Virus record (IMG/VR): IMGVR_UViG_3300010150_000009
Span: 1-64,000 of that record
Length of the DNA stretch: 64,000 nt
Reading direction: 5' to 3' (one strand)
From: a virus
Shown: piece after piece, positions 2,005 to 42,774 of the stretch
Numbering within the stretch: the first letter of the stretch is position 1
How the letters are laid out: each line of letters begins with the position of its first letter
The notes under the pieces: model-generated
The model's input: only the letters and a program-made list of their open reading frames with translations
Database searches by the model: none
Told to the model about the DNA's origin: nothing
Position numbers and translations under genes: made by a program

Positions 2005-2844
2005 ATGAGTAACATACTAGAACAATATTATCGCCAACCTGAGATTTATATCTCAATTCCACATGAGGGAAAATTTTACCCTGAAGGTAGTTTAGATTTA
2101 TCACCAACCAGCGAGGTGCCAGTTTATGCTATGACCGCAAAGGACGATATTATTTTAAAAACACCTGACGCCCTCATTTCAGGAGAGGCGGTAGCACAAG
2201 TTATTAAAAGTTGTATTCCTGCTATTTTGGATCCGTGGCAAATTCCTGCTACTGATGTTGATTTTATTTTAGTTGCTATTAGAATAGCATCATACGGAAA
2301 CGACATGGAATTAGAATTTAAATGTTCAGAATGTGAGGAAGAATTTAATTATGCAGTCACTTTAAATCATTACATAGATCATTTAAGTCAAGCCAGTATG
2401 TCTGTAGAAAGTAATATTCTCAAATACGGTGAAGTTAAAGTTCATATTAAACCTCTATCTTATAAAGATTTATCTCTAATTCAAAGAAGAACTTTTGAAG
2501 AGCAAAGAGCCATTGAAGCAGTAGGAACTATGGAAGATAAGTCAGAGGAAGAACTAAAAGAAATATATAATGAAATATTAAACACTATGACTGAAATTAA
2601 TATTAATAGCATATCATCTGGTATTAAAGGTATTGAATTACCAGATGGGACTATGGTTACAGATAAAGACGAAATTATAGGTTTTGTGAATAATGCTAGT
2701 GTAAAACTTTTTAAGAAAATTACAAATACTATACAAGAAATAAAAGATAAAACTGCACTAGAACCATTGCATATAGAATGTCCTAAATGTAACCATGCGT
2801 TTGACTCTCCAATAATTTTTGATTATGCAAATTTTTTCGCCTAA
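2005..2844 (+). CDS. 26: gp26-like baseplate hub / tail assembly chaperone (zero-frame product)
   Basis: The 279-residue protein looks like the T4 gp26 / T4_baseplate family: an N-terminal IPHEGKFYPEGSLDL segment, then PVYAMTAKDDIILKTPDAL, and two CxxC pairs (CSECEEEF near residue 110, CPKCNHAF near 265) that could bind a metal. These proteins help assemble the baseplate hub or tail and are not known enzymes. The start is supported by a GAGG 8 nt before the ATG. The gene ends at a TAA just after an A AAT TTT slippery heptamer, and the -1 frame stays open for another 77 codons (see the next feature). The next gene begins at 3068. The neighbouring tape-measure-like gene is divergent. Family assignment is from recognisable motifs, not a search. 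Confidence 0.75.
   Translation: MSNILEQYYRQPEIYISIPHEGKFYPEGSLDLSPTSEVPVYAMTAKDDIILKTPDALISGEAVAQVIKSCIPAILDPWQIPATDVDFILVAIRIASYGNDMELEFKCSECEEEFNYAVTLNHYIDHLSQASMSVESNILKYGEVKVHIKPLSYKDLSLIQRRTFEEQRAIEAVGTMEDKSEEELKEIYNEILNTMTEININSISSGIKGIELPDGTMVTDKDEIIGFVNNASVKLFKKITNTIQEIKDKTALEPLHIECPKCNHAFDSPIIFDYANFFA
2829..2835 (+). promoter_or_regulatory. Candidate -1 ribosomal frameshift site (A AAT TTT)
   Basis: In the gp26-like frame the codons GCA AAT TTT TTC GCC TAA contain the classical X XXY YYZ heptamer A AAT TTT at 2829-2835, nine bases before the stop codon. A one-base backward slip enters a frame that is open to 3068. The layout matches the lambda G/GT and P2/Mu-like tail chaperone frameshifts. 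Confidence 0.65.
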
Positions 2845-3068
2845 GGCTTTTATCATTAGGTTTTGAAGAAGTATTAGAATTAATTGCTAATTACGAGAAA
2901 CAGGTAGAAGTCATTAAAAAAGAAATTTACAAATTTGCTTGGTTTATGAGAGGTGGCTTTACTATTAATGAAATGTTCAATACTTCTTTAAAAGAAAGAC
3001 AATTGCTAACAGAGATTGTAGAAGAAAACTTAAAAATAACAAAAGATTCGGGGCTACCATACTTCTAA
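2835..3068 (+). CDS. -1 frame extension of the gp26-like chaperone (gpGT/T-like)
   Basis: From TTT at 2835 the -1 frame reads FRLRLLSLGFEEVLELIANY and continues for 77 residues to a TAA at 3066-3068. The product has ordinary protein composition: helical, with a Lys/Glu-rich stretch, WFMRGGF, and a C-terminal SGLPYF. There is no start codon with a ribosome binding site; the first ATG in this frame, at 2946, would leave only 40 residues and has no Shine-Dalgarno. The frame ends exactly on the next gene's ATG (TAATG). This is best explained as a frameshifted C-terminal domain fused to the gp26-like protein, giving about 354 residues. It could be the counterpart of the downstream T4 hub chaperone gp51, but that link is inference from gene order. 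Confidence 0.6.
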   Translation, partial: FRLRLLSLGFEEVLELIANYEKQVEVIKKEIYKFAWFMRGGFTINEMFNTSLKERQLLTEIVEENLKITKDSGLPYF

Positions 3069-18463: not shown

Positions 18464-21400
18464 ATGGCAATAAGAAAGACTGTTAACCTATTACCTGGAC
18501 AGTTTCAAACTGATGTTAATAAAAAGTTTTTAAACGCAACATTGGATCAGTTAATGTCCCCAGGGACTTTGGATGTTGTTAATGGTTTCGTTGGAAGGCG
18601 AGATGTTAACAACTTTGAAACAACTGATAGTTATGTAGTTGAAACAACATCTGATAGAAGAAACTATCAGTTAGAACCTGCAATAACAATTAAAAAAGAT
18701 TTAGCAACGGCAAACTTAGAGCAATCTGCTTATGCCTTTGCCGCCACATATATTGACACAATTAACTCAGTTAAAGTAAAGGGCGGTAGTAGTTATAATC
18801 ATAACAGATTGTTTTCTAGTGAATACTATGTGTGGACACCACCTATTGACCAAGATAAAATTTCCAGTTATACAAAATACTTTTGGTTACAAGACGGTCC
18901 AGATACTATAGAGATTGATCAAGAAATTAATGTAGAATCAGATTTAATAGGCAAAACAACTTTTACTGCTACTAGTGGCACACAATCAGTGGTGTTTTCC
19001 TCTGGACTAAAAGTTAAGTTCACTAACGCATCTACGTATCCATCATCATACCAAAACAAAGAATACCTGGTTGCAAATGTTGGAAAGAGCATTGAATTGA
19101 TTGAGTGGAGCACTTTAGTCACACCTGAGTCAGCAGTTTATTCTCTAACTAAAGATTACATAACTATTAAGCCTGGCGCACTTGATGGCAACCAATGGAG
19201 TAATAATAACCGTTGGTTCCATGAAGATATTATTACCAAAACAGCAGAATATACAAACACAGTTCCTGTATTTGATTCAGCAGTTAGAGCAAAACGTCCT
19301 ATTATTGAGTTTGATAAAAACTTAAAACTTTATGATTTTGGTACTGCTAAGTTAACAGATGTCGACTTAGTTGACACTTTATTTACAGATGCGTTCTCTG
19401 ATTTAGAAGGACAGCCAAGTGCTGGTACTTACATAGACGGAAAGTTGGTTGAAGAAGGACAATTAATAGTATTTACAAGCGATGCAGATCCTTTTGTTAA
19501 TGGCTTTGTATACGAAATACAAATTCTTAGAATTGCTGGTGTAGATACTATACACTTGGAAAAGTCAACTACTATCGCAGATCCTGTAGAGCATAATACA
19601 CTTATTGCCAAATATGGCAATAATGCAGGAACACAGTGGTATTATAAAAACAGCAAATGGAATAAAGGACAAATTAAAGCAGGAGTAAACCAAGCCCCAT
19701 TGTTTGATATGTTTGATGAGACTGGTGTTAGTTTTTCAACATATACTAACAGCACGTTCGCTGGTTCTCCAGTGTTCAGTTACGCAGTAAACTCAGCAGG
19801 AGTGGCAGACACTGAGTTAGGTTTTGCTTTAACATATAGAAACTTTAATAACATTGGCGACATTGTTTTTTACGATAATATTATTAGAGATAGTTTTACA
19901 TATACTACTGATGTTTTAAACAATGTCACTAGCAGTGTAAGAAACGCAAAAGGCTTTTTACACAACTATAATAGTATTTCTGATTATACAGTAGAAAATA
20001 ACTGGACAAAAGCACCGTTTGAGAGTAGACAGTTTATACAACAAACAATTTCAGTAGGATCTGAATTACAACAGTTTAAAATTACGACAACTCCAAAGGA
20101 AGAAACTAACGCAAAGAATTTAATTGTAAAAGTTAACGGAAAGTTGAAGGAGAAAGGAGAAAACTCCTCCACCACAAAAGATTTTTATATTTTAACAACT
20201 GATAATGTACAGTATGTTAATTTCACAACAGCCCTTACCACTGGTGACGTACTTGTTATAAAATCTTATACTGACGACACTACTGAAAACTTAGTAGATG
20301 GAGAAGTGTATAACATTCCTGTTAACTTAAATAATAACCCGCTTAATAATTTGGACGTAACAACAACATACACCCTTGGACAAATTAGAGACCATATCGG
20401 AACGTGCGTTGATAATAGTTTAGAATTTGAGGGCACATACTTTGGTTATAATAATACTAGAGACATTGGCGACATCAGTCTGTTAGGAACAAACATTGTT
20501 CAAAACTCTGCTAGTTTAGCAAAAGCAGGGTACATACTAACAAACAACGAATATGACTTTTTCACTTCAATTGACCACGCAGAAGTACAATACAATAGAT
20601 TTAAGAACTTATTTTTAACTACTGCTGACAACCTCGAGTATGATTCAAATACATCTAGGTTTGTTGATTCTATTTTACAGACAATGTTCGCTGGTAAAAA
20701 TAATACAATGGCATATCACAATAGTGATATGGTTCCGTTCTCAACAGATACAACAACTTTAACATATACAATTTTTGATATTGATAATAAGAAGTTTGAA
20801 CTTAATAAAACTTACAACGACACAGTTCCAAGTGAAACTGGTGTATTAATATACAACAATGGTGTTATGCTGGTAAAAGATAGAGATTATACTTTCTCTA
20901 CAACAACTCCGTTTGTTACATTGGCGGACAGTGTAACATTAGTTTCAAACGAAAAACTTGAGATCGTTGAGTATATTACTACAGGTGGTAACTTTGTGCC
21001 GCCTACTCCTACTAAGTTGGGATTATATCCAAAGTATGTTCCAAGTAAGTTTACAGATGACACATACAAGACATCAATTGATGTTATTCAAGGACACGAT
21101 GGTTCCATCACACCAGCGTATGGTGATTATAAAGATGATGTTTTACTAGAGTTAGAAAAAAGAATTTACAACAATCTTAAAGTTGAGTATAATAGTAATT
21201 TACTTGATACATGTAACTTGATTAACGGTCATACTAGAAAAGTAGACTACACTACTCAAGAGATTAACAATATATTAAGTGCCTACATATCCAATTGGGC
21301 TAACAAAAACGGAATAAATTACATCACAAACTCAACTTACGACGTAAGCGATCCGTTTACTTGGAACTATAGTTTAATAAAGAATAAATTTGATTCGACA

Positions 21401-24400
21401 CAATTATTGCCTGGCTACTGGAGAGGCATTTACAAGTATTTTTATGATACAGACAGACCACATACACGCCCGTGGGAAATGCTTGGATTTACAGATAAGC
21501 CATCGTGGTGGGAACTTACTTATGGCCCAGCACCTTACACAAGAGATAACTTAATATTGTGGCAAGACTTAGAGGATGGCGTGATTGCGTCCGGACCCAA
21601 AGCAGGCACATATGACAAATACAAACGCACAGGTTTAGTTGCTAACTATATTCCTACAGACAGTGCTGGTAACTTAATGCATCCTGTAGATGTTGGATTA
21701 ATTGATAGAATTGATTCAAGTACAAGCGCAGATTGGGCAATAGGTGACGACGGTCCGGCTGAAACAGCATGGAAAAGATCTAGCAGTTATCCGTTCGCGT
21801 TACAGAAGTTGATGGCGTTAACAAAGCCGGCAAAATATTTTGAACTAATGTACGATGTGTCTAAAATAACCACAAACCTAGTAGGACATTATGTACACAA
21901 GGACACTGGGTTACCAATTGTTCCTAACGCAGTAAGCACACATGGGTTTGTTAACGCAGATGGTACTGTTGAATACACTGCTGGTTATGGTAACTGGATA
22001 GTTGATTATACAGTTTACTTGGGCGGTAGCACAATAAAGTTTAATGAGAATCTTAATAGTTTAAGTCTTAATCTTGCTTATAAAATGGCAGGGTTTACAG
22101 ATAAAGAAAAGTTAAAGATTATACTTGAGCAAATTTCACCAACACGCTCTTCCAATGACGTGTTTATACCACAAGAGGATTATTCCTTTTATCTATTAGA
22201 AGGAAAGCCATTAGAAAGAATTAATTACTCGGGTGTGATAGTTGAAAGAACTGAGTCTGGCTACATTATTGATGGTTACTCTGTCGATACTCCTTACTTT
22301 AATGTTCTGCAAAGTATTACTACCTCAGGAAATAAAAGACAAGTTTCAGTTGGTGGAGTACAACTTGATACCGTTCCTTACGAGCCTAATAATGATTACG
22401 CAGCTGGACAAATATTAGAAACAACCTCTGGGTCATATTACATTGTTAATATTCCTTTTTCATCAACAGATGATTTTGAAAATGATAGGCAATATTTAAC
22501 AAGGACTCAGCAAATTCCAACGCAAGGCGGAGTTACAGTATTACGATATGGAGATTTTAAAAATACTCCAACCAAAGTGCCTTATAGAACAGAATACAAA
22601 ACTATACAAGATGTTTATGATTTTATTATTAGTTATGGTAGATATTTAGAGTCTACTGGTTTACAATTTGATAATATTAGCGATGATTTTGGACTAGTTG
22701 AAGATTGGGATCAGTCAGGAGTTGAATTTTTATACTGGACACAAACAAACTTTGGTCCCGGATCAATGCTTACAATGAGTGCTGGTAGCTCAGTTCTAAA
22801 GTTTAATCTAAGTAACGCACAGGTCGGAAGTTTAACTAGCGAGATTATTCCGTCATCAGTTATCAACCAAAACAAGCAAAAGATTTTAGTTCAAGATTTA
22901 TTTTATAAGAGAGAAGATAACACATTTGAATTAAGCACTAGCCAAGAAGTAGATGGTGTATACGCTTGCGTCTTAAATCCAATACAAACAGAACATTTGT
23001 TAATTGTAGAAAATGAAACTGTATTTAATGATGTTATTTGGAACTTAACCACTGGTAGCAGACAAAACAGAATTAAGTTAGTAGGCTATAAGACAAGATT
23101 GTGGGACGGAACGCAACAATTGCCAGGCTATGTCTTATTAGATGACAGCGTTGATGATTGGGATGTTAACAATAATTATGAACTCGGCGAGATTATAAGA
23201 TTTAAAAGTAAATTTTATGTCGCTAATATAAAACACGCTCCGTCGGATTTAACAGAACAAGGAAAGTTTGATTTTAGCAAATGGAAACTACTAGATGAAG
23301 TTAACACTGGCTTGCTTCCTAACTTGGATACAAAAGCAGATCAGTTTAGAGCCTTCTACGAGATTGAAGAAGATGTGAGGAAGTTTAGCACTGAGAAACT
23401 TTCTTCTAACCTAATAGGTTACCAAAGTAGAAAATATTTAGAGAATCTGCAGATTGACGAAACTGCTCAAAAGAAATTCTATCAAGGATTTATTAAAGAA
23501 AAAGGAACAACAGCGGTTGTTGATAAATTGCTCAGAGCAAAAGTTCCTGCTTTGGATACCTCAATTAACTTATACGAGGAATGGGCATTTAGAATTGGCG
23601 AGTATGGTTCTGTAGACAGCACACAAAGTATTGATTTTTACTTAGAAGAGAATAAATTTAAAGAAAGTCCTGACTTAATAGAGCTTATTAATGCTGACGA
23701 GCAATATAAGAATGAAAATATTACAGTTCGTCCAAGCGATCTTTACCAAAAGCCATTAGAACCATTACACTTTAATAAAAATATATTCTCTATAGAATCA
23801 GACACAATAGATGATAGACTAACCCTTCCAACAGCAGGGTATGTAAGAACTGACGATACGAAACATTCAGTTGTTAGCCTATCAGAGTGGGTTTCTTCTA
23901 ACACTATTATAATAGAAGAAACAATTAATATCGAAACACAGTTAATTGGAAGAACAAGTTATACTACTAGTGGCTCTGTTACATTATATAATGGTGCCGT
24001 AGTAAGTTTTGATAGCACACAAATTATACCGTCCAGTTATAGAGGTAAAAACTTCGTAGTAACTGGAGTAGGTGAGTCTATAGTACTAACTGAAAAAACT
24101 GCGTATCTTAATTCGTTAGCAATTGGTGACAAAGTTTGGGTCTCTAGTGCTGACAGTTTCCCACCGCAGTTTAAAGAGGATTCAAAAGATTGGGCAGTAT
24201 ATAGAATTACTAACGCAGGGAATTCACCTATAAGTGTATCTAAAGATAACGACAATGAATTAACTGTTGCATTTTTGTATCCCATTGGTAGCATACTAGT
24301 AGGCGAATATATTATTTTAAGACGCTGGACAAGCACGTCAAACAGTGGAGTAGATTTTAGTGGAATTTACAAAGTAAAAGAAAACTTATCCTCCAACGGA

Positions 24401-27400
24401 CTTTATGTACTAAAATTACACGCAACAACGTCACTGGAACCATACGCAAGTTTGGGTGATTCACAAGCACCTACTATAACACGCGGCGAGATGGTAGTAT
24501 TATCCAATGCTCGATATAATAGTTCAGACAGTTTATACGGAACAGATGAACCAAGATATGGTTGGCAAGACGGTGATTTAGCATGGGTTGATGACTACGC
24601 TGATACAGGGAAATGGGCAGTATTAGAGAAAAAGAATCCTTACACGCTAAGAGAGCAAATATATCCTAACAGTAAAGCAATTAATACTGGATTTGGGCAG
24701 GCAGTTTCCACTAACAAAGACACTTCCACATTATTAGTAGGATCAGTGTACGATGGCACCTCAGCAGGCAACATTGAACAATGGACAAGAGACATCAAAA
24801 CAGTATTTGATGTTAAGAGTATTTTTGTAAGTGGCGATGGTTCACTAACGTCAGGTTACTTAAACAACTCTGGATACTTGTTAACTGTTAATACTGACGG
24901 ATTGCCACAGCCATCATCTTTTGGTACATTTCCAAATGATAGTAATTCTAATAGAGTTACACCAAAAGTTTTTGAACACACTATAAACATCCGTGTTGGA
25001 ACAAATACCACAACTACTACTCCAAGAGAAATTGGAAGTGATAGTATTGGTATTACAGCAACTGGTGTTACTATTAAAAGTCCTATAGTTGAAGGAGAAT
25101 TAACTAACGACACTGGCAGTGCCAAAGGAAAAGCACCATTAAATTGGCAATGGAACGCTGTAGTAAACAGAAGCAAATTAGGACTGGACAGTGGCGACGG
25201 ACAACCGTTGGATGACAACCATTATAATTATTATAGTGGTAAGTTTTTAAGCCAATGGAATGACAGCGTATACTTAGAAAATAGTTATTATAATGATACT
25301 AATTACAGCGGCGATCATTGGAGACACGCGGATGGGCACTCTAAAATAATTGGCTATGCTTATGATGGTTATCCAATTTATGGACCTTTTGGATATCAAA
25401 CTCCTACTAACTCTGCTACAACACCAGTAAGAATGACCTCATCATACTTGTTACATGACGCTCCTCTTGCTGATAGAGAATACAATTATACCCAATATTC
25501 TAAAGGATCTTTTATACAAGATTATTATTATTCAGATGGATCAGGCACGTTAGACAAACACAATGGACGTTATGGTGTAACTCCTGATTATCCAGACGGC
25601 ACATACGCATACTTTTTGACAATTAAGGTAGATGGTTCTGTAGTTTATCCTTACGTAGTAGGACCAACAATGAAGGAATATCCTGTATTAGAAGCAGATA
25701 CCGTTCCTAAAGATCCAGGAGGTAGTAATACACAGACGGTTGCCTTAGTGCCGGCAGACTTTGCTTTTGACAGTAATATAATTGACGGCAGTAAACTTCG
25801 CAACAGCGGACTTCTTGGGTGGCGATTTGATAATACTAAAGAACACGATTACGTTGTAACAACAGCACCAGGAAGTAATAGTAACGAAGGCTATGTTATT
25901 GTTTTAAAACAAAAAGATGATAAAACATATGAGGCATTTGATATACTTCGATCACCGGCGCCAGCAGTAAATGGATATTTTGGTTATGATGTTGCTCTTA
26001 GTAACAACGGAAACTATATGATTATTGGCGAGCCAGGAGAGTTAAAGGCACACATTTATGGACTAACAAATACTGTTACGACAACGAATAGTGAGTTCTT
26101 TAACGGAACAGGCGCAACTCCAACGTTTGCGACAACAATATCATACAGTGACAATAGAGAAGTTACAGTGTATGTTGATGGACAAATTAAAATTGAAGGA
26201 TTAGATTATACATTAGGAGCAGGAACAATTACATTTGTTACCTTCCCACCATTAGGTTCTAACAATGTTGAGATGCGTACTGGAAATTATTTTTATCAGG
26301 TTCAAACTCTATCAGGAGCATCAGCAACAGACTTTGGTAGAAGTGTTGCTATAAACGATAATGGAGATTTTGCATTTGTCGGCCAGCCAGACAAAGCAGC
26401 CGGCGGAAAATTGCAAGTAGGAAGCACTAAAGTTTATGCTAAGTCACCTAACGAAACGTATAGCGAAGTTCAAGAACTTTCTAGTAACATAACAAGCGAG
26501 TTGGAATTTTTTGGTAAGCAAGTAGAATCAGGCGACAGTGGTCACATTGTCGCAGTTGGTGCCACAGGTGCAGATTACACCTACATAGGAGCAACTGCTG
26601 CCTTAGCGTATAATACAGGTGAAGTAGACTACTTTATTAATAATATGAAAGTAACTGGTACAATAACAGGAACAGTTGCTAATCCAACTGTTGGTATTGG
26701 TGATCAAATTGTTATTAACGGCACACAGGTTACATTTACAGGTACAGCATTGACTGATATTGTACAAGATATTAATGACGCAAGTATTACATTCATCACC
26801 GCAGAAAGCACTTCGGATAATAAATTAAAAATTACTAGTACTAGCACCACAACAAATAATAAACTTAGTATTACAGTAGGTAATACAAATGGTGTGGCAG
26901 TGTTTACAGCAATTGGTATTACATTGTATGAATTTAAAGCATCGTTAGTACATCCAGACGGTTTACAAAACGCTTATTATGGAGAAAGAATAAAGTTTAA
27001 CGAAGACGCTTCTAAATTGTTAATTAGTAGTCCAGCAGGAAACTCAATTGTTGAGATAGGTATAGATGACGGTTTAACAACATTTGATCAGTCTAATACG
27101 GCAATTAGTGATATCCAATTAGAGTCAGGGTCTGCGTTAATATACGATATTAATAGCGATATGACAAACAGTTTAATTCAACGTTTAGATTGGAGAGAAC
27201 GCAGACAGTATGACAAATACGGTTCAGGCATTACATTAACAAATAACACCGCGTTCGTTGGTGCTCCAGGAGATGATTACTTCGAAACAGAGACAACAAT
27301 TGGAGATGGTGTAACTACAGCATTTGCAATAACTGGACAATATAGTACTGATAATATTGAAGTTACTATTAATGATAAAAAGATATTATCTGGCTTTACA

Positions 27401-30400
27401 AGCGACAATGCATCACCTAATAGCACAGTTACATTTGATAATCCACCGCTTGCGTATACTATTAAGTTTAGTAAGTATACGTCTAATACTGGTTCAGTAC
27501 TAGAGGCGATTGACGCAAATAACAAAGGCTCCTGGAATGTTAAGCGACAACAAAATTCCAGAGTTGACATTGACACAATTAATCAAGTATTCACATACAA
27601 TCAGAAAACTAATAAGTTTATAAACTATGTTGACTACTTGGATCCAGTAAAAGGAAAGATACCTGGCGTTGTAAACCAAGAAATAAGTTTCAAAACATTC
27701 TATGATCCAGCAGTTTATAATGTGGCCACAGATACTACAGTGACCACAGACTCAGATAACCATTGGGGACCTAACCAAGTTGGAACATTGTGGTGGGATT
27801 TAACAAACACCAAGTATGTTGATTATGAACAAGGTGATTTGGAGTATAGAAAAAAATCATGGGGTAAACTATTCCCAGGCACACAAATTAGCGTATATGA
27901 GTGGGTAGAAAGTGATACGTTGCCTTCAAGTTACGCTGTATATGATGGCGACGGAACTCCTAAGTTTGCGAGCGATAGTGCTTATGTTGAATACGTTAGA
28001 AAAGACGACGCAACAGGCTTACTTGAATCAGTATATTATTACTGGGTTAAAAATAAAACATCAATTCCACAAAAATCTAGAGCATATTTAGACGCGACAG
28101 GACAAATTAGATTTACATCACGTGGAAGAGAATTAGAGTTGCAAAGTTTTATACCAGCCGCAACAAGAAAACTTCCAGCCAATACAGTTGCTAACATGTT
28201 AAAAGATCCGGAAGGTAACGGACTTGCTTATATAGGTGTAGTTGCTCAAAACGCAATTGTTGGTTATAATTTAAATAAAAACCTAGTTAACAAGAATATT
28301 GTACTCAGCGTTAATTATGACACAAAGAAAAATAATATTCCTTTACACACTGAATGGCAGTTAATGCAAAGAGATAATAAATTGTCTAAACCAAATAGTT
28401 ACTTGGTAACTAAACTATCAGATAGTTTAGTTGGTTTAGATATTACAGAAAAAAGTGTACCTGACCCAACAGTGCGTATTGGACAACGTTACGGAATATT
28501 AAATTATCCAAGACAAACAATGTTTGTTGACAAAGCAGGCGCTATTAAAATTTTAGTTAATTACTGTAATACAGTATTTGCAACTAATAAAATGGCGATA
28601 GACTTTGATCTAACTACTCTTAGCACCGCAGATCCAATTCCATCAACTGGCTACAATGAAATTGTAGAAACATATACAGAATTAACGTATATAAACACTA
28701 ATACAGTTTCAGAAGGTTACACTGTAATAGTTAGGAAAGACGAAACAAGAGAAAATTATTGGACATCATATTCATGGTCAACAGCACAAGGATTGTGGAA
28801 TTTTAATAAAAAACAAAAATATGACACAACCAAATATTGGGATTATGTAGATTGGTATGCTACTAACTATAGTAGCAACACAGTTATTGATCAAATTGTT
28901 CCTCTAAGAAACGATTTAGAAAAAATTACCACTGCTATAGGTGATGTGGTAAAAGTAATTAATAATGGTCAATCTAGATGGGAACTATATGTAAAAGGCT
29001 CTGATTCATATACTTTAATAGGCGAAGAAAATGCAACTGTTAAATTAAAGACAGAACTATATACATTAACAGAACCTCTACAAGAACTGAGGTACATCGT
29101 TAGTGCGTTACAAGACAATTTGTTTATTGATGAATTAGAAGAGCATTTTAATAAAGTTTGGTTTGAGTTAGTTCGTTTTGCACTACACGACCAAAACCTA
29201 CAAATTGACTGGGCATTTAAAACCAGTTTTGTAAAAGTAATACAAACAGTAAGAGAACTTACTGAAATTACAAACTACAGTTATGACGTACAGGATAGTA
29301 TAGAAAATTATATTAAGGAAGCAAAACCATATAGAACAAATTTAAGAGAGTATGTATATAGATATCCATACCTTGATGTAGCATTGACTGCGGTTACAGA
29401 CTTTGATCTTCCAGGTTACTGGGATGCGACACAAGAAATATTCCGTTCACCAAATGTATATAACGCAGACGATGACGAAAGAATGCAGACTGGCCCATGG
29501 GTCAATTGGTCCAATCATTACACTAAGCATATTGAATCTATGACTGTTGTTGATGGTGGTAGCGGCTACGGCACAACTGATCTTTCAGAGTATGCAGAGT
29601 CATCATATGATACAACGAAGTATGATGGTAAAGAAACAACAACAACTCCTCCGGTAGTTATTATTGAAAGTGGTGCCCAATGGGAACTTGGATATTCATA
29701 CACTAGCCTGGTAAGACCAGGAGAAGGTGGCGCGCAAGCAGTTTTAACTATTCCAACCCATAGCCCAGATACATTATGGTATTACAGTAGTGATATTAAA
29801 GACATGGGTTGGAAGGTGAGAGTACAGCCAGCATTACCCACTCCAGAAACAAAAACATTTGCTGTTACTGTAGTAGTTGATGGCGAAGGCAATCCAGATT
29901 TTTATATTGACGGTGTAGAGCGTCCTAATTTAATATTGTATAGAGGTTCAACATATACCTTTACGCAAACAGACGCAAGTAATGCCGCCAAAGGATATTT
30001 TAGATTCTCAGCATTAGAAGATGGTACACATAGAGACGGAAGCGGCGCAACCGCTGTTCCTGTAATGAAGTCACCAGGTTTAGATGAAGTAGAATCAGTC
30101 ACTGTAACAAATCCTGGGACAGGTTATGTAACCACGCCTAAAGTTACAGTACAAGGCGGCGCAGGTAGCGGCGCGATAGTATACGCTAACTTAGAAAACT
30201 TTAAAGTAAGAGATATTTTAGAAACAATTAAGTTTGATCGTGTGGATGGCCCTAGACATGTTAAAACAATTGCTGTAGATACTGGCGGCACAGGATACAC
30301 ATCAATTCCAACAGTTACAATAACAGGAACTGTTTCAGAAATTACAGTAACAGAAAAGGGAATGGGTTACTCAGTGGCGCCATTGATTGTAATATCACCA

Positions 30401-33247
30401 CCAGATGAGTTAAACGGAGTGCAAGCAACTGCGTCGTTGGTGTTAGACATTGATGGTTCAGTGACCAGTGTTACAGTAACAGAGCCTGGCAGTGGATATA
30501 CTAAAACTCCATTTGTACAGTTTATAAAAAATAGCCCAACTGACCCTAATCCAATAACAGAAGCAAGGGCAACGGCAGTGAGCACCGGACTTGGTGGCAC
30601 AGGCGCACAGGCAGTAGCAAATATTTCAAGCGGCGCAGTAGCAGGAATTACAGTCACTCAACAAGGCAGAGATTACCAAACAGCCCCTACTGTTATTATT
30701 AGCGGTGGCGGAGGTTCAAATGCTACAGCAACCGCAACAATTTCATTTACTACGTACAATAGATTAGAGCCAAATCATGAACTAACAAGTAAAAAGAACA
30801 GTGATCGTTTAACACTTTATTACGCAGGTGGGCAAACAGGCACAAACAGTGATAAGAACTGGAAAAACGAGCAGGTAAATACTCCAACTTATGAAGCGGT
30901 TATATCCGAATCAGGTTTGGAGTATAAAGCAAACAAGGTCCTTGGTGCGGAGTTTAGTTTAGAACCTGGTTATGACAGAGCCGCGTATGCTAGAAATGCT
31001 TTTGATGACTTTGCTATAACAGAAGAAGGCATTAGGGTTATCGCGTCTGTTGACACAGATATGAGCGGCGGTGATTTTAGCAGTACTGGCGGTGTTGACC
31101 CTGCTAATGTTGTAGTCGATGGTGATGGATTTGTTACAACATACACATCACATGCTCCTGAAGAACAAATTCCAGGTAGATTGTTTGATACACTGGATAT
31201 GAAAGTGTATGAAATGCCTACTCCAAGAAATTCAGGTGTAACTGTTAGAAAGTATACGTATAATGGCAATGGCTCAACCACTGCTTACAATTTCAGTGAC
31301 TTAGGCGGCTTACCTACTGCGTCATTTGGCGCAGAGGTATATGTTGATAACGTACTAAAAATTCGCTTAGTTGATTATACATTAGATTTTACTAACAACA
31401 CAGTTAACTTAAATTCACCTGCGTTGAATGGACAGCTAGTACATATTGTTTTAGTTGAAACGGGCGGTGAAAACTTTAGTTCATTCCAGCAAGACTTTGT
31501 TGGTGATGAATCAACAACTGAGTTTATTGTCAATGTTCCATATCAATACGCGCAAAGTTTATATGTTACAGTCAATGGTGGCAATCAATCTTATACAGCA
31601 ACTAGTTATTATAAGAGAACAAAAATTACATTTGATGCCGCTCCTATTGCTAATTCTAGAATAAGAGTACATACATTCAACATGTCTGGACTAGAAGTAA
31701 CAAATCCAGGATCTAAATATGATCCTAGCAATCCACCAACAGTTACTATTAGTGGTGTAGGCTCAAACGCAGCCGCAACCGCAGTAGTTAACGACAACGG
31801 AGAAGTTGAAGGATTTATTATAACAAACGTAGGCACAGGATATACTAGTGCGCCAACAGTTACAATAGGCACTCCTGGAGCAGGGGGTGTGCAAGCAACG
31901 GCAACCGCATCAGTTTATGATGATAAAATTGGTATTCCACAACCTTATATTAGAGTTGACTCGGAAGAATTTACTCTTCCAACACTAACAACATGGCCTA
32001 CAGATTACACATTAACTTATCCAGCACAGTTTATAGAGCAAGGTCCGGATTATGCTAAAGTAGTTGTATACTTAAACAAGACTAGACTAGCACCAGGTGA
32101 CACAGAATATTACACTGGTGATGGTAGCACAACTGTATTTGCGAGTCCATCTAATCCAACAGTAGACTACGCATTAGCAACTGATGCAGACATTCAAGTA
32201 CACGTTGGCGGAGAGTTAAAGACACTCACAACAGATTATACGTTTACAGGAACTCCAGCAAGAGCAGAAATAACATTTGTCACAGCACCTGCAGACGGCT
32301 TAGAGATTGCTATATCTGTTAGAAACGGGCAGTACTGGATTGAAAATGATCAAAGTATTATTTTAGAAGATGGTACAGGGTTATCAAGAACTGCTAATGC
32401 ATCTACTAGTGATTCAGTTTTTGTACAGTCATATATTAATCAAAAGTACAGCCAAGGAAACACTATTACTATTGAGGGATCATCAATTGCAACCTCAACA
32501 GGACTTGAAAGGTTTGACACAGTCGTATATGATGATATTGCGTACGCCGGCGATATTAGCGTTTCTATTGCTACACCAGTGTACGATATTAGAGTAATGA
32601 TGGAAGAATACAACACTAACTATGCTTGGGTATGGTTAAACGGAGTTTATCAAATAGCAAACCATGATTACTATATCACTAGTGATGGTTATTTGGTAAT
32701 GACACCACTAAGTGGGTTGATATTAGCATCAGATAAGATCACAGTGACTACTATGCGCGGAGCCGAAGCTGAGCAAGGACAAGGTATTGGATTTAGAATT
32801 TGGAAAGATATGTTTGACCAAGTTGCATACTATAGAATTTCCACAGCAAATACAACAACATTATCTACAGATCTTGCATACACAGATTTAACAATTAGTG
32901 TTACTGACGCATCCAAGTTATTAACACCGCAACCAACAAATGGTATTCCAGGTGTGATATTCATTGGAGGCGAGAGAATAGAATATTGGGAAATTGACGG
33001 AAATACATTAAAACGAGTTCGTAGAGGAACTTGGGGCACAGGTGTCCAAACAACTTATAACGCACAAACTGAAGTTGTTGATGGAAGTAAGCAACAAGCA
33101 ATTCCAGGTAAGACTGAAGCACATACTAATGTATGGTATGATCAAGGCACAAGTACAGCAACAAACGGCCAAGGTTTAGGTTTAGCAACGTCAGCACAGG
33201 CAAAATTCCTTAAGGAAGCACCGTTAACTACTCCAAAGGCATATTAA
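18464..33247 (+). CDS. Giant 4,927-aa baseplate wedge/fibre structural protein (gp7 position)
   Basis: An uninterrupted 14.8-kb frame directly after gp6 (AGGAAATAAT before the ATG) occupies the gp7 position of T4-like marine phages; T4 gp7 has 1,032 residues. Visible parts: an N-terminal module (MAIRKTVNLLPGQFQTDVNK); a YHYH-type motif IIGYAYDGYPIYGPFGY near residue 2295; FG-GAP-like blades FGYDVALSNNGNYMIIGEPG (about 2505), FGRSVAINDNGDFAFVGQP (about 2624) and FFGKQVESGDSGHIVAVGAT (about 2680); a QVGTLWWDLTNTKYVDYE segment near 3105; at least seven GTGYTSAPTVTI-type units between 3690 and 4480; several GDGSTT.F...V.V.G...DYT...I.F..AP beta modules (about 760, 2545, 2945, 4265, 4345, 4550); and a C-terminal WEIDGNTLKRVRRGTWGTG. 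Enzymatic activity is not evident. It probably forms the wedge arm plus adhesive domains. Confidence 0.75.
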   Translation: MAIRKTVNLLPGQFQTDVNKKFLNATLDQLMSPGTLDVVNGFVGRRDVNNFETTDSYVVETTSDRRNYQLEPAITIKKDLATANLEQSAYAFAATYIDTINSVKVKGGSSYNHNRLFSSEYYVWTPPIDQDKISSYTKYFWLQDGPDTIEIDQEINVESDLIGKTTFTATSGTQSVVFSSGLKVKFTNASTYPSSYQNKEYLVANVGKSIELIEWSTLVTPESAVYSLTKDYITIKPGALDGNQWSNNNRWFHEDIITKTAEYTNTVPVFDSAVRAKRPIIEFDKNLKLYDFGTAKLTDVDLVDTLFTDAFSDLEGQPSAGTYIDGKLVEEGQLIVFTSDADPFVNGFVYEIQILRIAGVDTIHLEKSTTIADPVEHNTLIAKYGNNAGTQWYYKNSKWNKGQIKAGVNQAPLFDMFDETGVSFSTYTNSTFAGSPVFSYAVNSAGVADTELGFALTYRNFNNIGDIVFYDNIIRDSFTYTTDVLNNVTSSVRNAKGFLHNYNSISDYTVENNWTKAPFESRQFIQQTISVGSELQQFKITTTPKEETNAKNLIVKVNGKLKEKGENSSTTKDFYILTTDNVQYVNFTTALTTGDVLVIKSYTDDTTENLVDGEVYNIPVNLNNNPLNNLDVTTTYTLGQIRDHIGTCVDNSLEFEGTYFGYNNTRDIGDISLLGTNIVQNSASLAKAGYILTNNEYDFFTSIDHAEVQYNRFKNLFLTTADNLEYDSNTSRFVDSILQTMFAGKNNTMAYHNSDMVPFSTDTTTLTYTIFDIDNKKFELNKTYNDTVPSETGVLIYNNGVMLVKDRDYTFSTTTPFVTLADSVTLVSNEKLEIVEYITTGGNFVPPTPTKLGLYPKYVPSKFTDDTYKTSIDVIQGHDGSITPAYGDYKDDVLLELEKRIYNNLKVEYNSNLLDTCNLINGHTRKVDYTTQEINNILSAYISNWANKNGINYITNSTYDVSDPFTWNYSLIKNKFDSTQLLPGYWRGIYKYFYDTDRPHTRPWEMLGFTDKPSWWELTYGPAPYTRDNLILWQDLEDGVIASGPKAGTYDKYKRTGLVANYIPTDSAGNLMHPVDVGLIDRIDSSTSADWAIGDDGPAETAWKRSSSYPFALQKLMALTKPAKYFELMYDVSKITTNLVGHYVHKDTGLPIVPNAVSTHGFVNADGTVEYTAGYGNWIVDYTVYLGGSTIKFNENLNSLSLNLAYKMAGFTDKEKLKIILEQISPTRSSNDVFIPQEDYSFYLLEGKPLERINYSGVIVERTESGYIIDGYSVDTPYFNVLQSITTSGNKRQVSVGGVQLDTVPYEPNNDYAAGQILETTSGSYYIVNIPFSSTDDFENDRQYLTRTQQIPTQGGVTVLRYGDFKNTPTKVPYRTEYKTIQDVYDFIISYGRYLESTGLQFDNISDDFGLVEDWDQSGVEFLYWTQTNFGPGSMLTMSAGSSVLKFNLSNAQVGSLTSEIIPSSVINQNKQKILVQDLFYKREDNTFELSTSQEVDGVYACVLNPIQTEHLLIVENETVFNDVIWNLTTGSRQNRIKLVGYKTRLWDGTQQLPGYVLLDDSVDDWDVNNNYELGEIIRFKSKFYVANIKHAPSDLTEQGKFDFSKWKLLDEVNTGLLPNLDTKADQFRAFYEIEEDVRKFSTEKLSSNLIGYQSRKYLENLQIDETAQKKFYQGFIKEKGTTAVVDKLLRAKVPALDTSINLYEEWAFRIGEYGSVDSTQSIDFYLEENKFKESPDLIELINADEQYKNENITVRPSDLYQKPLEPLHFNKNIFSIESDTIDDRLTLPTAGYVRTDDTKHSVVSLSEWVSSNTIIIEETINIETQLIGRTSYTTSGSVTLYNGAVVSFDSTQIIPSSYRGKNFVVTGVGESIVLTEKTAYLNSLAIGDKVWVSSADSFPPQFKEDSKDWAVYRITNAGNSPISVSKDNDNELTVAFLYPIGSILVGEYIILRRWTSTSNSGVDFSGIYKVKENLSSNGLYVLKLHATTSLEPYASLGDSQAPTITRGEMVVLSNARYNSSDSLYGTDEPRYGWQDGDLAWVDDYADTGKWAVLEKKNPYTLREQIYPNSKAINTGFGQAVSTNKDTSTLLVGSVYDGTSAGNIEQWTRDIKTVFDVKSIFVSGDGSLTSGYLNNSGYLLTVNTDGLPQPSSFGTFPNDSNSNRVTPKVFEHTINIRVGTNTTTTTPREIGSDSIGITATGVTIKSPIVEGELTNDTGSAKGKAPLNWQWNAVVNRSKLGLDSGDGQPLDDNHYNYYSGKFLSQWNDSVYLENSYYNDTNYSGDHWRHADGHSKIIGYAYDGYPIYGPFGYQTPTNSATTPVRMTSSYLLHDAPLADREYNYTQYSKGSFIQDYYYSDGSGTLDKHNGRYGVTPDYPDGTYAYFLTIKVDGSVVYPYVVGPTMKEYPVLEADTVPKDPGGSNTQTVALVPADFAFDSNIIDGSKLRNSGLLGWRFDNTKEHDYVVTTAPGSNSNEGYVIVLKQKDDKTYEAFDILRSPAPAVNGYFGYDVALSNNGNYMIIGEPGELKAHIYGLTNTVTTTNSEFFNGTGATPTFATTISYSDNREVTVYVDGQIKIEGLDYTLGAGTITFVTFPPLGSNNVEMRTGNYFYQVQTLSGASATDFGRSVAINDNGDFAFVGQPDKAAGGKLQVGSTKVYAKSPNETYSEVQELSSNITSELEFFGKQVESGDSGHIVAVGATGADYTYIGATAALAYNTGEVDYFINNMKVTGTITGTVANPTVGIGDQIVINGTQVTFTGTALTDIVQDINDASITFITAESTSDNKLKITSTSTTTNNKLSITVGNTNGVAVFTAIGITLYEFKASLVHPDGLQNAYYGERIKFNEDASKLLISSPAGNSIVEIGIDDGLTTFDQSNTAISDIQLESGSALIYDINSDMTNSLIQRLDWRERRQYDKYGSGITLTNNTAFVGAPGDDYFETETTIGDGVTTAFAITGQYSTDNIEVTINDKKILSGFTSDNASPNSTVTFDNPPLAYTIKFSKYTSNTGSVLEAIDANNKGSWNVKRQQNSRVDIDTINQVFTYNQKTNKFINYVDYLDPVKGKIPGVVNQEISFKTFYDPAVYNVATDTTVTTDSDNHWGPNQVGTLWWDLTNTKYVDYEQGDLEYRKKSWGKLFPGTQISVYEWVESDTLPSSYAVYDGDGTPKFASDSAYVEYVRKDDATGLLESVYYYWVKNKTSIPQKSRAYLDATGQIRFTSRGRELELQSFIPAATRKLPANTVANMLKDPEGNGLAYIGVVAQNAIVGYNLNKNLVNKNIVLSVNYDTKKNNIPLHTEWQLMQRDNKLSKPNSYLVTKLSDSLVGLDITEKSVPDPTVRIGQRYGILNYPRQTMFVDKAGAIKILVNYCNTVFATNKMAIDFDLTTLSTADPIPSTGYNEIVETYTELTYINTNTVSEGYTVIVRKDETRENYWTSYSWSTAQGLWNFNKKQKYDTTKYWDYVDWYATNYSSNTVIDQIVPLRNDLEKITTAIGDVVKVINNGQSRWELYVKGSDSYTLIGEENATVKLKTELYTLTEPLQELRYIVSALQDNLFIDELEEHFNKVWFELVRFALHDQNLQIDWAFKTSFVKVIQTVRELTEITNYSYDVQDSIENYIKEAKPYRTNLREYVYRYPYLDVALTAVTDFDLPGYWDATQEIFRSPNVYNADDDERMQTGPWVNWSNHYTKHIESMTVVDGGSGYGTTDLSEYAESSYDTTKYDGKETTTTPPVVIIESGAQWELGYSYTSLVRPGEGGAQAVLTIPTHSPDTLWYYSSDIKDMGWKVRVQPALPTPETKTFAVTVVVDGEGNPDFYIDGVERPNLILYRGSTYTFTQTDASNAAKGYFRFSALEDGTHRDGSGATAVPVMKSPGLDEVESVTVTNPGTGYVTTPKVTVQGGAGSGAIVYANLENFKVRDILETIKFDRVDGPRHVKTIAVDTGGTGYTSIPTVTITGTVSEITVTEKGMGYSVAPLIVISPPDELNGVQATASLVLDIDGSVTSVTVTEPGSGYTKTPFVQFIKNSPTDPNPITEARATAVSTGLGGTGAQAVANISSGAVAGITVTQQGRDYQTAPTVIISGGGGSNATATATISFTTYNRLEPNHELTSKKNSDRLTLYYAGGQTGTNSDKNWKNEQVNTPTYEAVISESGLEYKANKVLGAEFSLEPGYDRAAYARNAFDDFAITEEGIRVIASVDTDMSGGDFSSTGGVDPANVVVDGDGFVTTYTSHAPEEQIPGRLFDTLDMKVYEMPTPRNSGVTVRKYTYNGNGSTTAYNFSDLGGLPTASFGAEVYVDNVLKIRLVDYTLDFTNNTVNLNSPALNGQLVHIVLVETGGENFSSFQQDFVGDESTTEFIVNVPYQYAQSLYVTVNGGNQSYTATSYYKRTKITFDAAPIANSRIRVHTFNMSGLEVTNPGSKYDPSNPPTVTISGVGSNAAATAVVNDNGEVEGFIITNVGTGYTSAPTVTIGTPGAGGVQATATASVYDDKIGIPQPYIRVDSEEFTLPTLTTWPTDYTLTYPAQFIEQGPDYAKVVVYLNKTRLAPGDTEYYTGDGSTTVFASPSNPTVDYALATDADIQVHVGGELKTLTTDYTFTGTPARAEITFVTAPADGLEIAISVRNGQYWIENDQSIILEDGTGLSRTANASTSDSVFVQSYINQKYSQGNTITIEGSSIATSTGLERFDTVVYDDIAYAGDISVSIATPVYDIRVMMEEYNTNYAWVWLNGVYQIANHDYYITSDGYLVMTPLSGLILASDKITVTTMRGAEAEQGQGIGFRIWKDMFDQVAYYRISTANTTTLSTDLAYTDLTISVTDASKLLTPQPTNGIPGVIFIGGERIEYWEIDGNTLKRVRRGTWGTGVQTTYNAQTEVVDGSKQQAIPGKTEAHTNVWYDQGTSTATNGQGLGLATSAQAKFLKEAPLTTPKAY

Positions 33248-39397: not shown

Positions 39398-40316
39398 GAT
39401 AGTTGATGTGGCAGATTTAGACTGCATCTACTTAACATATGATGAACCACAGAAGGACGAGTTTTGGGCTAAGATACTTAACATGGTTCCGTGGGCAAAA
39501 CACGTAGATGGTGTTTATGGATCCGATGCGGCACACAAAGCGGCGGCAGAGGCAAGTGACACAGAACGTTTTGTTTTAATCGACGGAGACAATATGCCTG
39601 ACCCGGAGTTCTTTAACCTGCAACTTACAATAGATGACGCTACAAAGGATTGTGTTTTTAGATGGAAAGGACGCAATATTATAAACGGACTAATGTATGG
39701 CAATGGTGGGTTAAGTTGTTGGCCAGTTGAGTTTGTAATGAATATGAAGTCACATGAAAACACTGATGGCAGAGATGAAACATTGGTTGAATTTTGCTTT
39801 GATGACAATTACAAGGCAATGCATAACTGTTATAGCACAACATATCCAAATGGATCAGAATTACACGCATGGCGAGCAGGGTTTAGAGAAGGCGTCAAAA
39901 TGGTGTTAGACCAAGGCAAGCGTCCTGATCTTGACACATTTGAAAAAGCAATTCACGCACGTAACTACGACAATCTATGCATCTGGCAAACTGTTGGACG
40001 CGATATTGAACACGGCAATTGGGCAATATATGGAGCACGTTTAGGCACATTTTTAACTATGCTTACAGACTGGAACTATGTAAATGTAAGAGACTTTAAG
40101 TATCTCACAGAAATGTTTAACGCAGAATACGCATCTAAGGATCCAGAACAAGAAGCAAAGTTACTAGGCGAAATACTACAAAACAAACTAGGTATGCCTA
40201 TATGCGAAATGGATGCTGAAGCAAGTAAGTTTTTCAAAGCACATTATAGCACACATACTAACTACGACATTATGATACAAGAGTTGGATGTAATACGTCA
40301 AATTGAAGGCTGGTAA
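39390..40316 (+). CDS. Glycosyltransferase-like protein with LIDGDN motif
   Basis: The ATG at 39390 is chosen over the upstream TTG because GAGG stands 10 nt before it and the frame overlaps the previous stop. The N-terminus is a GT-A-like module: CIYLTYDEPQKDEFWAKILN, VDGVYGSDAAHKAAAEASDT and RFVLIDGDNMPDPEFFNLQL, with DGD as the probable metal-binding triplet (about residue 71). Further conserved-looking stretches are MYGNGGLSCWPVEFVMNMKS and ELHAWRAGFREGVKM. The same arrangement, without DGD, ends the 1,011-residue repeat protein at 57191. I infer sugar transfer; the donor is unknown. The stop overlaps the first radical SAM gene by one base. Confidence 0.55.
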   Translation: MTEIVDVADLDCIYLTYDEPQKDEFWAKILNMVPWAKHVDGVYGSDAAHKAAAEASDTERFVLIDGDNMPDPEFFNLQLTIDDATKDCVFRWKGRNIINGLMYGNGGLSCWPVEFVMNMKSHENTDGRDETLVEFCFDDNYKAMHNCYSTTYPNGSELHAWRAGFREGVKMVLDQGKRPDLDTFEKAIHARNYDNLCIWQTVGRDIEHGNWAIYGARLGTFLTMLTDWNYVNVRDFKYLTEMFNAEYASKDPEQEAKLLGEILQNKLGMPICEMDAEASKFFKAHYSTHTNYDIMIQELDVIRQIEGW

Positions 40317-41758
40317 TGGAACTATATAAAGACAATAAGGGCGACAAAGTAGAAGTAAAAGACGGAAAATTTAAATCCGACTTTTATAAAAGTGCCGAAA
40401 ATATTAAAGAGCAGTTAGACTCTGTTTCGCCATCCTTTTGTCTTGCTAAATGGAACCAAGTTAGTTTACATTTGCCAACAGGATATAATAATAGTTGCTA
40501 TCATCCTCCACTCCATAAAATGGATGCAGAAGCAGTTAAAGTAAATCCATCCGCACTACACAACACGCAACACAAAAAAGAAATGCGTAAATTGATGATC
40601 AAAGGCGAACGTCCAAAAGAATGTCAGTACTGTTGGAACATAGAAGATACAGGACATATGAGCGACAGGCACTACAGAAGTGGTGAACCATGGGCACATA
40701 TGGACTTTGAAACTATACTTAACACGCCATGGGATGCAGATAAGAACCCACGCTATGTTGAGGTTAACTTTAACCATAACTGTAATCTAAAGTGTAGTTA
40801 CTGCTCACCTCAATTTAGCACGTCGTGGGAAAAGGAAACAAAACAATTTGGAGCATGGCCCACTAAAACTCCACATAACGCACCTGAACACTTTACAGGA
40901 AGCCGTGCTTGTATTCCCCACAGTCAATATAATCCATATGTAGAAGCATTTTGGAAATGGTGGCCTGATCTATATAAAGATTTAAAACACTTTAGAATGA
41001 CAGGCGGCGAACCTTTGATGGATAAAAATACTTACAAAGTATTTGATTACATTAACGCAAATCCAAAGAGTGACCTACACCTCAACGTAACAAGTAACTT
41101 CTCTGTGGAAGATAAACTGTTTGACAAATATATTGAAGCGATTAAACCCATTTGCTTAGATGAAAAAGTAGAACACTTTATGCAGTACATTAGTGTTGAT
41201 AGTTGGATGGAGCAAGCAGAATATATACGAAATGGCTTAGATTTTAATCGAATGTGGAATAACATCAATAGATTTTTAACAGAGATTCCATATAGAAACA
41301 GTGTTACATTTATCATTACGTATAATAATTTGAGTGTAACGGGTTTAGACAAACTGTTGTCAGCAATACACGGATTAAGACAAGCATATAGTGATACGTA
41401 TCAACGTATATGGTTTGATACTCCGCTACTAAGGCAACCAGCTTGGCAGAGCGTACAGTTATTGCCAGAGTCATACCAAATGATTCATGATGATAATGTA
41501 TGTTGGATGCTCGATAATATGGAGGACGAAAGCACAAGATTTAAAGGTTTTAAGGATTATGAAGTCCAACGTATGCAACGAGATTTAGCATGGTGGCAAG
41601 AAGGCAGTAAACTAGATGAGCAATATGTAAGAGATTGTAAAGCAGATTTTTATAGATTTTTTAACGAACACGATAAACGCAGAGGAACAAACTTCCTAGA
41701 AACTTTCCCGGAGATGGTAGATTGGTGGAAAGAATGTAAGAGGTTAGCACAGGCATGA
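40316..41758 (+). CDS. N-terminal-twitch radical SAM enzyme 1
   Basis: The radical SAM motif CNLKCSYC (Cys156, 160, 163) is preceded by an N-terminal Cys-rich twitch-like region with FCLAKW (Cys42), SCYHPP (Cys61) and CQYCW (Cys103/106), expected to hold an auxiliary Fe-S cluster. The SAM-binding GGEP (TGGEPLM) is near residue 230. The family ending reads RRGTNFLETFPEMVDWW. Enzymes of this architecture are thought to act on peptides or other large substrates; the target here is unknown. At 480 residues it is the longest of the set. It is most like the enzyme at 42775 (shared FC.AKW, C.HPP, LHNT/IHNT, EYCW). Its last four bases overlap the next gene (ATGA). Confidence 0.85.
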   Translation: MELYKDNKGDKVEVKDGKFKSDFYKSAENIKEQLDSVSPSFCLAKWNQVSLHLPTGYNNSCYHPPLHKMDAEAVKVNPSALHNTQHKKEMRKLMIKGERPKECQYCWNIEDTGHMSDRHYRSGEPWAHMDFETILNTPWDADKNPRYVEVNFNHNCNLKCSYCSPQFSTSWEKETKQFGAWPTKTPHNAPEHFTGSRACIPHSQYNPYVEAFWKWWPDLYKDLKHFRMTGGEPLMDKNTYKVFDYINANPKSDLHLNVTSNFSVEDKLFDKYIEAIKPICLDEKVEHFMQYISVDSWMEQAEYIRNGLDFNRMWNNINRFLTEIPYRNSVTFIITYNNLSVTGLDKLLSAIHGLRQAYSDTYQRIWFDTPLLRQPAWQSVQLLPESYQMIHDDNVCWMLDNMEDESTRFKGFKDYEVQRMQRDLAWWQEGSKLDEQYVRDCKADFYRFFNEHDKRRGTNFLETFPEMVDWWKECKRLAQA

Positions 41759-42774
41759 GAAATGACTTTAACTGGCCATTATGGCATTGGCATTTTGAAC
41801 TTACAAGTGCTTGTACATTAAAGTGTCCGCGTTGCTCTAGAACAGAAAAACCAGAAACATTAGTAATAGATAATTTAGATTTAAATTTTTTTAAAGAAAA
41901 CTTTACTAAAGATATTTTACAAGAAACGAAAAGAGTTACTTTTTGTGGCTATGACGGCGACCCAATTTACAACAAAGAATTTATAGAAATATGCGAATAC
42001 TTTAAAAGTAATAATCAAAAAGTAGAGTTAAATATTGTAACCAATGGTAGTTATAAAAAAACTGACTGGTGGTTAGAGTTAGGAAAAACCTTAAACAAAT
42101 ACGACCAAATTCATTTTAGTTTAGATGGCTATGATCAAGAAAGCAATGAGAAGTATAGAGTAAACAGTAATTGGAATAGTATAATAGAAGGAATAGAAAC
42201 ATTGCGTATTGGTCCCGTACGACTAGTGTGGGATATGATTTATTTTTCTTTTAATTATAAACACGTAGACCATATGGTAAATCTTGCACAGGAATTAGGC
42301 TTCGATGCAATGCGACAAACTAAAAGTAATAAGTTTAATTTCTTTTACGAGCACTACGACGATTCTTTAGATCCTATTAAAGAATATATTAGTGAGTCTG
42401 GTAGATACGAAAGTAATACAATACGTTTTACTGATAGAAAAATATACGACGACAGTTTTAAGACAGCAAGAGAAATATATAAAAAGCAAACACCAATTGG
42501 AGATATAACCCCGTATTGTTTTATAGGCACAAAGGGGTTGTTTGTAGACAGCAGAGGGTATTTTTATCCGTGCTGTTGGATTATAGATAGATATAATGAT
42601 AAAGCATACGCAGAGTGGCAAACAGAAGATAAAAATATAAAACAAAGTGGATTAGAGTCCGTTTTAAACACTAATTATTGGACACAGTTTATAGCCAATA
42701 TTCCCAAGTTAGATATATGCAAATTAAAGTGCAAATCAACAGAAATTAACGAAGAAACAGTAATGAGGTTCTAA
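41755..42774 (+). CDS. Radical SAM enzyme with C-terminal Cys-rich (SPASM/twitch-like) domain
   Basis: This is the odd member of the array: the radical SAM motif is near the N-terminus (FELTSACTLKCPRCSRTEKP, Cys20, 24, 27), there is no N-terminal twitch region, and the usual GGEP is replaced by FCGYDGDP. The C-terminal part has TPYCFIGTKGLFVDSRGYFY followed by PCCW and KLKCKS, a SPASM/twitch-like set of Cys for an auxiliary cluster. SPASM enzymes commonly modify peptides or carry out dehydrogenations. It lies between two N-twitch enzymes and overlaps the first by 4 bp, abutting the next directly. Confidence 0.85.
   Translation: MRNDFNWPLWHWHFELTSACTLKCPRCSRTEKPETLVIDNLDLNFFKENFTKDILQETKRVTFCGYDGDPIYNKEFIEICEYFKSNNQKVELNIVTNGSYKKTDWWLELGKTLNKYDQIHFSLDGYDQESNEKYRVNSNWNSIIEGIETLRIGPVRLVWDMIYFSFNYKHVDHMVNLAQELGFDAMRQTKSNKFNFFYEHYDDSLDPIKEYISESGRYESNTIRFTDRKIYDDSFKTAREIYKKQTPIGDITPYCFIGTKGLFVDSRGYFYPCCWIIDRYNDKAYAEWQTEDKNIKQSGLESVLNTNYWTQFIANIPKLDICKLKCKSTEINEETVMRF

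Follow-up and report, generated by a model that had tools for sequence, protein, structure and literature searches.

Phage lambda sets the precedent: the short and long tail assembly chaperones of its G/GT system, present in a set proportion, keep hold of the tape measure and bring in the tube subunits (PMC5009743). Such frameshifting of tail chaperone genes has been reported as broadly conserved among long-tailed phages, "except T4" (PMC5009743), where gp26 and gp51 count as hub assembly chaperones and gp51 is required yet not found in the virion (PMC3004832). In the accessible text on the tail assembly chaperone (TAC) gene of phage Adele (Vandenendeviridae, Andersonviridae), an invariant poly-T lies near the 3′ end and the −1 frame is open in all members, as is largely the case for the locus described here; the phage families are different, the motif is GTTTTT, and that portion of the source mentions neither a stem nor a Shine–Dalgarno (SD)-like element (PMC12846349). 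Both that paper and PRFect (PMC10885494) refer to Vladimirov, Gautam and Davidson (2022) on T4-like TAC frameshifts, including poly-T signals. A frameshifted chaperone in T4-like phages is of a kind already known. Here a putative case is documented, at the level of sequence, in jumbo relatives whose two parts carry the labels "baseplate hub" and "hypothetical protein," or no annotation at all. A known phage device would thereby extend to a group in which T4, its most familiar member, was called the exception.

The window, that is, the whole 64-kb stretch of DNA analyzed, comes from a jumbo T4-like phage and covers the opening 64 kb of its 111.6-kb virus record. Its gene at 2005–2844 very probably undergoes programmed −1 ribosomal frameshifting of the lambda G/GT type, which would yield two tail assembly chaperones, one short and one long. 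The locus is laid out as follows.

2005..2844, + strand: short tail assembly chaperone (TAC-N, T4 gp26-like), 279 aa, 0 frame; PF12322, phrog_150
2829–2835, + strand: A AAT TTT, the heptamer named by the first-pass annotation; overlaps T TTT TTC, not kept in relatives
2832–2838, + strand: putative slippery heptamer T TTT TTC, P-site TTT and A-site TTC; invariant in homologues, one codon before the stop
2838..3068, + strand: −1 frame extension, 76 new codons from CGC at 2838–2840; stop TAA at 3066–3068
2842..2844, + strand: 0-frame stop TAA, one codon past the heptamer, likewise in most relatives
2845..2854, + strand: predicted stem, 5′ arm GGCTTTTATC, 6 nt past the heptamer; 10 bp; P=0.017 alone
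2903..2912, + strand: predicted stem, 3′ arm GGTAGAAGTC, pairing with 2845–2854

This arrangement resembles lambda gpG/gpGT in that a single gene would give both chaperones through −1 slippage close to its 3′ end, in the X XXY YYZ form of the heptamer, and in an extension that often lacks its own start. It differs from lambda in that the window protein belongs to PF12322, with a sequence unrelated or undetectably related, in that the shift site is a U run, in the stem and SD-like stimulators of T4-like phages, and in that the tape-measure neighbor is unconfirmed in the window.

The naming of the gene as gp26-like was borne out by profile searches, in which its product matched PF12322 (E=9e-18; 65.2 bits, above the cut-off of 24.5) and phrog_150 (E=8e-19); PF12322 is matched by 26/26 members of the chaperone family alignment. 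Homologues occur in the jumbo T4-like phages Phosso, Atu_ph07, PA5oct-like, 121Q, and RaK2. Each of the 11 records matching the jumbo profile contains one gp26-like locus, and no second copy was found in them with that profile, at a sensitivity at which T4 itself goes unmatched. AlphaFold2 gave confident models of both the short protein (pLDDT 86.7) and the helical extension (pLDDT 84.7). Neither sequence nor fold searches revealed relatives of the gp26-like protein with solved structures, and for this reason the predicted models add no function; a fold search with the extension likewise gave no significant match, as expected of a small helical bundle. Two CxxC pairs in the short protein, C107/C110 and C259/C262, are invariant in 8/8 aligned jumbo chaperones and possibly form a metal site linking distant parts of the protein.

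The 3′ end of the 2005–2844 frame reads GAT TAT GCA AAT TTT TTC GCC TAA. The A AAT TTT on which the first-pass annotation had placed the shift, nine bases before the stop, is indeed present, but it lies six bases from the stop, and it was rejected as the slip site because among jumbo relatives it is found in the window phage alone. The conserved site is instead T TTT TTC, which overlaps it and lies one codon further on. The preceding codon, AAT in the window, is CAT, AGT, TAT, CGT, TCT, GCT, or GAT elsewhere and always ends in T. T TTT TTY was present in 16/16 of the named jumbo phages and cyanophages first examined, with the −1 frame nearly always open. Phages carrying T TTT TTC include Phosso, Atu_ph07, Cassandra, 121Q, Vibrio 2.275, RaK2, Munch, XbC2, pEa47, fEgEco12, Syn1, P-SSM4, and S-SCSM1; Melnitz and XacN1 carry T TTT TTT. 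At greater distance, KVP40-like and rhizobial phages show the form T TTT TTN: T TTT TTC in phi-ST2 (KVP40-like) and ME01, T TTT TTG in phiM9, and T TTT TTT in phiM7. Among 81 IMG/VR loci gathered by homology to gp26-like proteins, 80 combine T TTT TTC with a −1 frame open for 60–79 codons, two of them reaching the contig end, and the remaining one is an in-frame fusion. The comparison across homologues that had been proposed as a check thus found both elements conserved, and their retention across T4-like phages, with the −1 frame of S-SCSM1 as the exception, argues for the G/GT-type frameshift that the first-pass annotation had put forward.

The heptamer shows signs of selection. Among 66 marine representatives, its wobble bases are frozen (T in 66/66, T in 66/66, and C in 65/66), while synonymous positions just 5′ of it use two to four bases, a contrast that further supports frameshifting. 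Within seven genes of the window (8120 codons), in which Phe codons are used at a TTT:TTC ratio of 275:50, T TTT TTC occurs in frame once, at 2832–2838.

Around the junction, no stop interrupts the −1 frame between 2823 and 3065. A run of 81 open codons arose in 14/20,000 dinucleotide shuffles. No ATG, GTG, or TTG precedes codon 38 of the window extension (ATG 2946), and its TAA overlaps the ATG of the next gene at 3068 as TAATG, so that the earlier description of an open, start-less frame ending on the next ATG holds. The extension is also open and conserved in Phosso, Atu_ph07, and others. In the extension of the marine phages, differences between related sequences number 1028, 488, and 3514 at −1 codon positions 1, 2, and 3, respectively, a pattern by which the −1 extension behaves as a translated frame. 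Joined to the short protein, the extension would complete a long chaperone of ~354 aa (TAC-NC).

In the proposed mechanism, most ribosomes would read 2005–2844 to its stop and produce the short chaperone. When TTT occupies the P site and TTC the A site, a minority would slip one base back on T TTT TTC, both Phe tRNAs re-pairing on TTT TTT, and would translate the −1 frame from CGC (Arg) as far as 3068, giving the ~354-aa fusion with its helical C-terminal domain. The stem 6 nt 3′ of the heptamer probably acts by slowing the ribosome. If the lambda gpG/gpGT analogy holds, many short and few long copies would coat the tape measure, recruit the tail tube, and then depart. The frames, the site and its conservation, the stem, and the relationship to gp51 can be read from the sequences themselves; that slippage takes place in the window phage, its rate, and the chaperone role there are what we infer.

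Alternatively, the downstream frame might be an independent small gene expressed by translational coupling through ATGA or TAATG overlaps, a reading that we consider very unlikely. Annotators do call two genes in many relatives (the second as "hypothetical protein" or "gp51"), and an ATG falls within codons 3–5 of the −1 frame in Phosso, Atu_ph07, 121Q, and many cyanophages, where it could serve as an alternative start of the extension. Relatives with separate real starts had been named in advance as grounds for abandoning the frameshift; such early ATGs do exist, but the phages bearing them still carry the invariant heptamer, and in many other relatives a start is lacking there. The usual start is absent near the junction in the window, Cassandra, and RaK2, and was not found in the first 12 extension codons of 18/80 IMG/VR loci, all marine, an absence that favors frameshifting and led to rejection of the extension as a free-standing gene. 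Moreover, separate genes would leave the frozen heptamer and the covariation of the stem unexplained, the SD-like element is positioned for a shift rather than for the ATG, and T4 gp51 fuses both parts. S-SCSM1 may truly operate with two genes: the heptamer is retained there, yet the −1 frame stays open for only six codons (L013:3200–3420), and a gp51-like extension lies in a different frame behind its own ATG, at which it could start.

In the layout of the E. coli dnaX frameshift, an SD-like element lies upstream and a stem downstream. Both are matched in the marine members, which carry an SD-like GAGGG about 10 nt upstream of the heptamer (mean pairing −7.5 kcal/mol) in addition to a downstream stem; the dnaX site differs in being A AAA AAG and in giving a shorter product, whereas T4-like phages would use a U run to make a longer one. 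The SD-like element is absent from the window and from most jumbo phages, a further difference from dnaX and, for the window, a point against frameshifting. Several jumbo phages have the stem alone. Helices of 8–11 bp begin 6–7 nt past the heptamer in Phosso, Atu_ph07, Cassandra, XacN1, and Vibrio 2.275; 121Q has a 7-bp helix at the same spacing, and in L020 the strongest helix begins earlier, at +1. Combined over twelve phages and compared with dinucleotide shuffles, the stem is significant at Fisher P=1.7e-10 (8e-10 without L020), values that are approximate since the twelve phages are related; Munch, XbC2, and pEa47 individually gave no stem signal against such shuffles. Folding z-scores are −3.4 for Phosso, −5.7 for Atu_ph07, −3.1 for L020, and about −1 for the window, whose own stem is weak by this score and P=0.017, a point against the frameshift.

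A 10-bp stem with the spacing seen in the jumbo phages shows covariation across the marine set, with a score of 0.194 against 0.090 for shuffled alignments (0/500 reached it) and 0.03–0.10 when the stem is slid, although the count depends in part on how the stem was chosen, from an earlier RNAalifold run and by eye. RNAalifold predicted no consensus structure from a marine alignment of 60 columns, though the named stem covaries strongly. Column 14 pairs with column 28 as U-A in 27 sequences, G-C in 12, and A-U in 11; since column 14 is mostly a silent Ala position and column 28 the second base of a Glu, Val, or Ala codon, protein coding does not explain the pairing. Together, the stem at constant spacing, its marine covariation, and the marine SD-like element support frameshifting by ribosomes. 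They also bear on transcriptional slippage, by which a base added to some mRNAs on the T run would open the −1 frame. Six consecutive T's are conserved, and phiM7 has seven, which speaks for such slippage, but the run is short, is nearly always ended by a conserved C and is not lengthened, and a stem at 6-nt spacing with an SD-like element upstream suits ribosomes; slippage of the polymerase is hardly credible here.

That the layout reflects an assembly error or a decayed gene fusion with a non-functional site, as the in-frame fusion at the same place in one marine contig might suggest, is as good as negligible, for the two-frame layout recurs in many independently sequenced phages and the window locus is identical over 3995/3995 bases in two other metagenome contigs, making an isolated assembly error unlikely. 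The fused marine T4-like locus itself (L073:2001–2930) is two bases shorter at the slip site than its neighbors and keeps both the stem and the SD-like element. A second chaperone copy was not found in its 236-kb record, and either the phage has naturally lost the short form or the contig was assembled wrongly.

How, then, does T4 relate to these phages? Both T4 gp26 and gp51 match PF12322, over nearly all of gp26 and over residues 1–201 of gp51. The marine extension aligns with the C-terminal 48 residues of T4-type gp51 (~200–249), collinear from the slip residue (probability 95.8%, E=8e-9), a homology that in turn supports the frameshift; the jumbo extension, including that of the window, gave a weaker match, over the C-terminal part only (70%, E=4e-5). 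With a PF12322 domain followed by a C-terminal extension homologous to the −1 extensions, T4 gp51 looks like the long chaperone form encoded in one frame. T4 differs in having the two forms on separate genes, with no frameshift, whereas the window has one gene with a slip site. A separate gp51 gene is present in T4, Aeromonas phages, and PspYZU05 phages. The frameshifted relatives suggest an origin for T4's two chaperone genes: we lean toward frameshifting as the ancestral route to both chaperones in the T4 superfamily, with the T4 26/51 pair derived by duplication and in-frame fusion, and, as part of the same moderately favored proposal, toward a shift site that stayed constant over the superfamily as stimulators were exchanged between groups. 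If so, the textbook "conserved except T4" would be valid only for T4's own branch.

In cyanophage, KVP40-like, and rhizobial phages, the −1 extension itself is annotated as "gp51" or "baseplate hub assembly catalyst," and the cyanophage "gp51" is most likely the −1 extension of the chaperone gene. The recoding signal is short and testable, and is found in an abundant marine phage group as well as in jumbo phages. In these, the long chaperone would have been recorded as a small gene of unrelated kind, cut short, or overlooked, and annotation pipelines should join both frames.

The first-pass annotation had also placed the locus next to a tape-measure-like gene. This was not confirmed: the neighbor, P0004, is divergent and cut by the record end, and no homology was detected between it and T4 gp29 or the tape measures annotated in relatives, though it occupies the position of the annotated tape measure in pEa47 and RaK2. 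Elsewhere in the window, seven consecutive radical SAM-like genes (40316–49338, + strand) begin at 40316, 41755, 42775, 44135, 45441, 46688, and 48037, and in at least three of them a SPASM domain precedes the radical SAM core instead of following it. Near them are a Nol-like carbamoyltransferase (53076–54698) and an aminotransferase (61163–62227, minus strand), and the cluster with its neighbors is unusual cargo for a T4-like phage. The structural gene region contains a single open reading frame of 4927 aa at 18464–33247 (+ strand).
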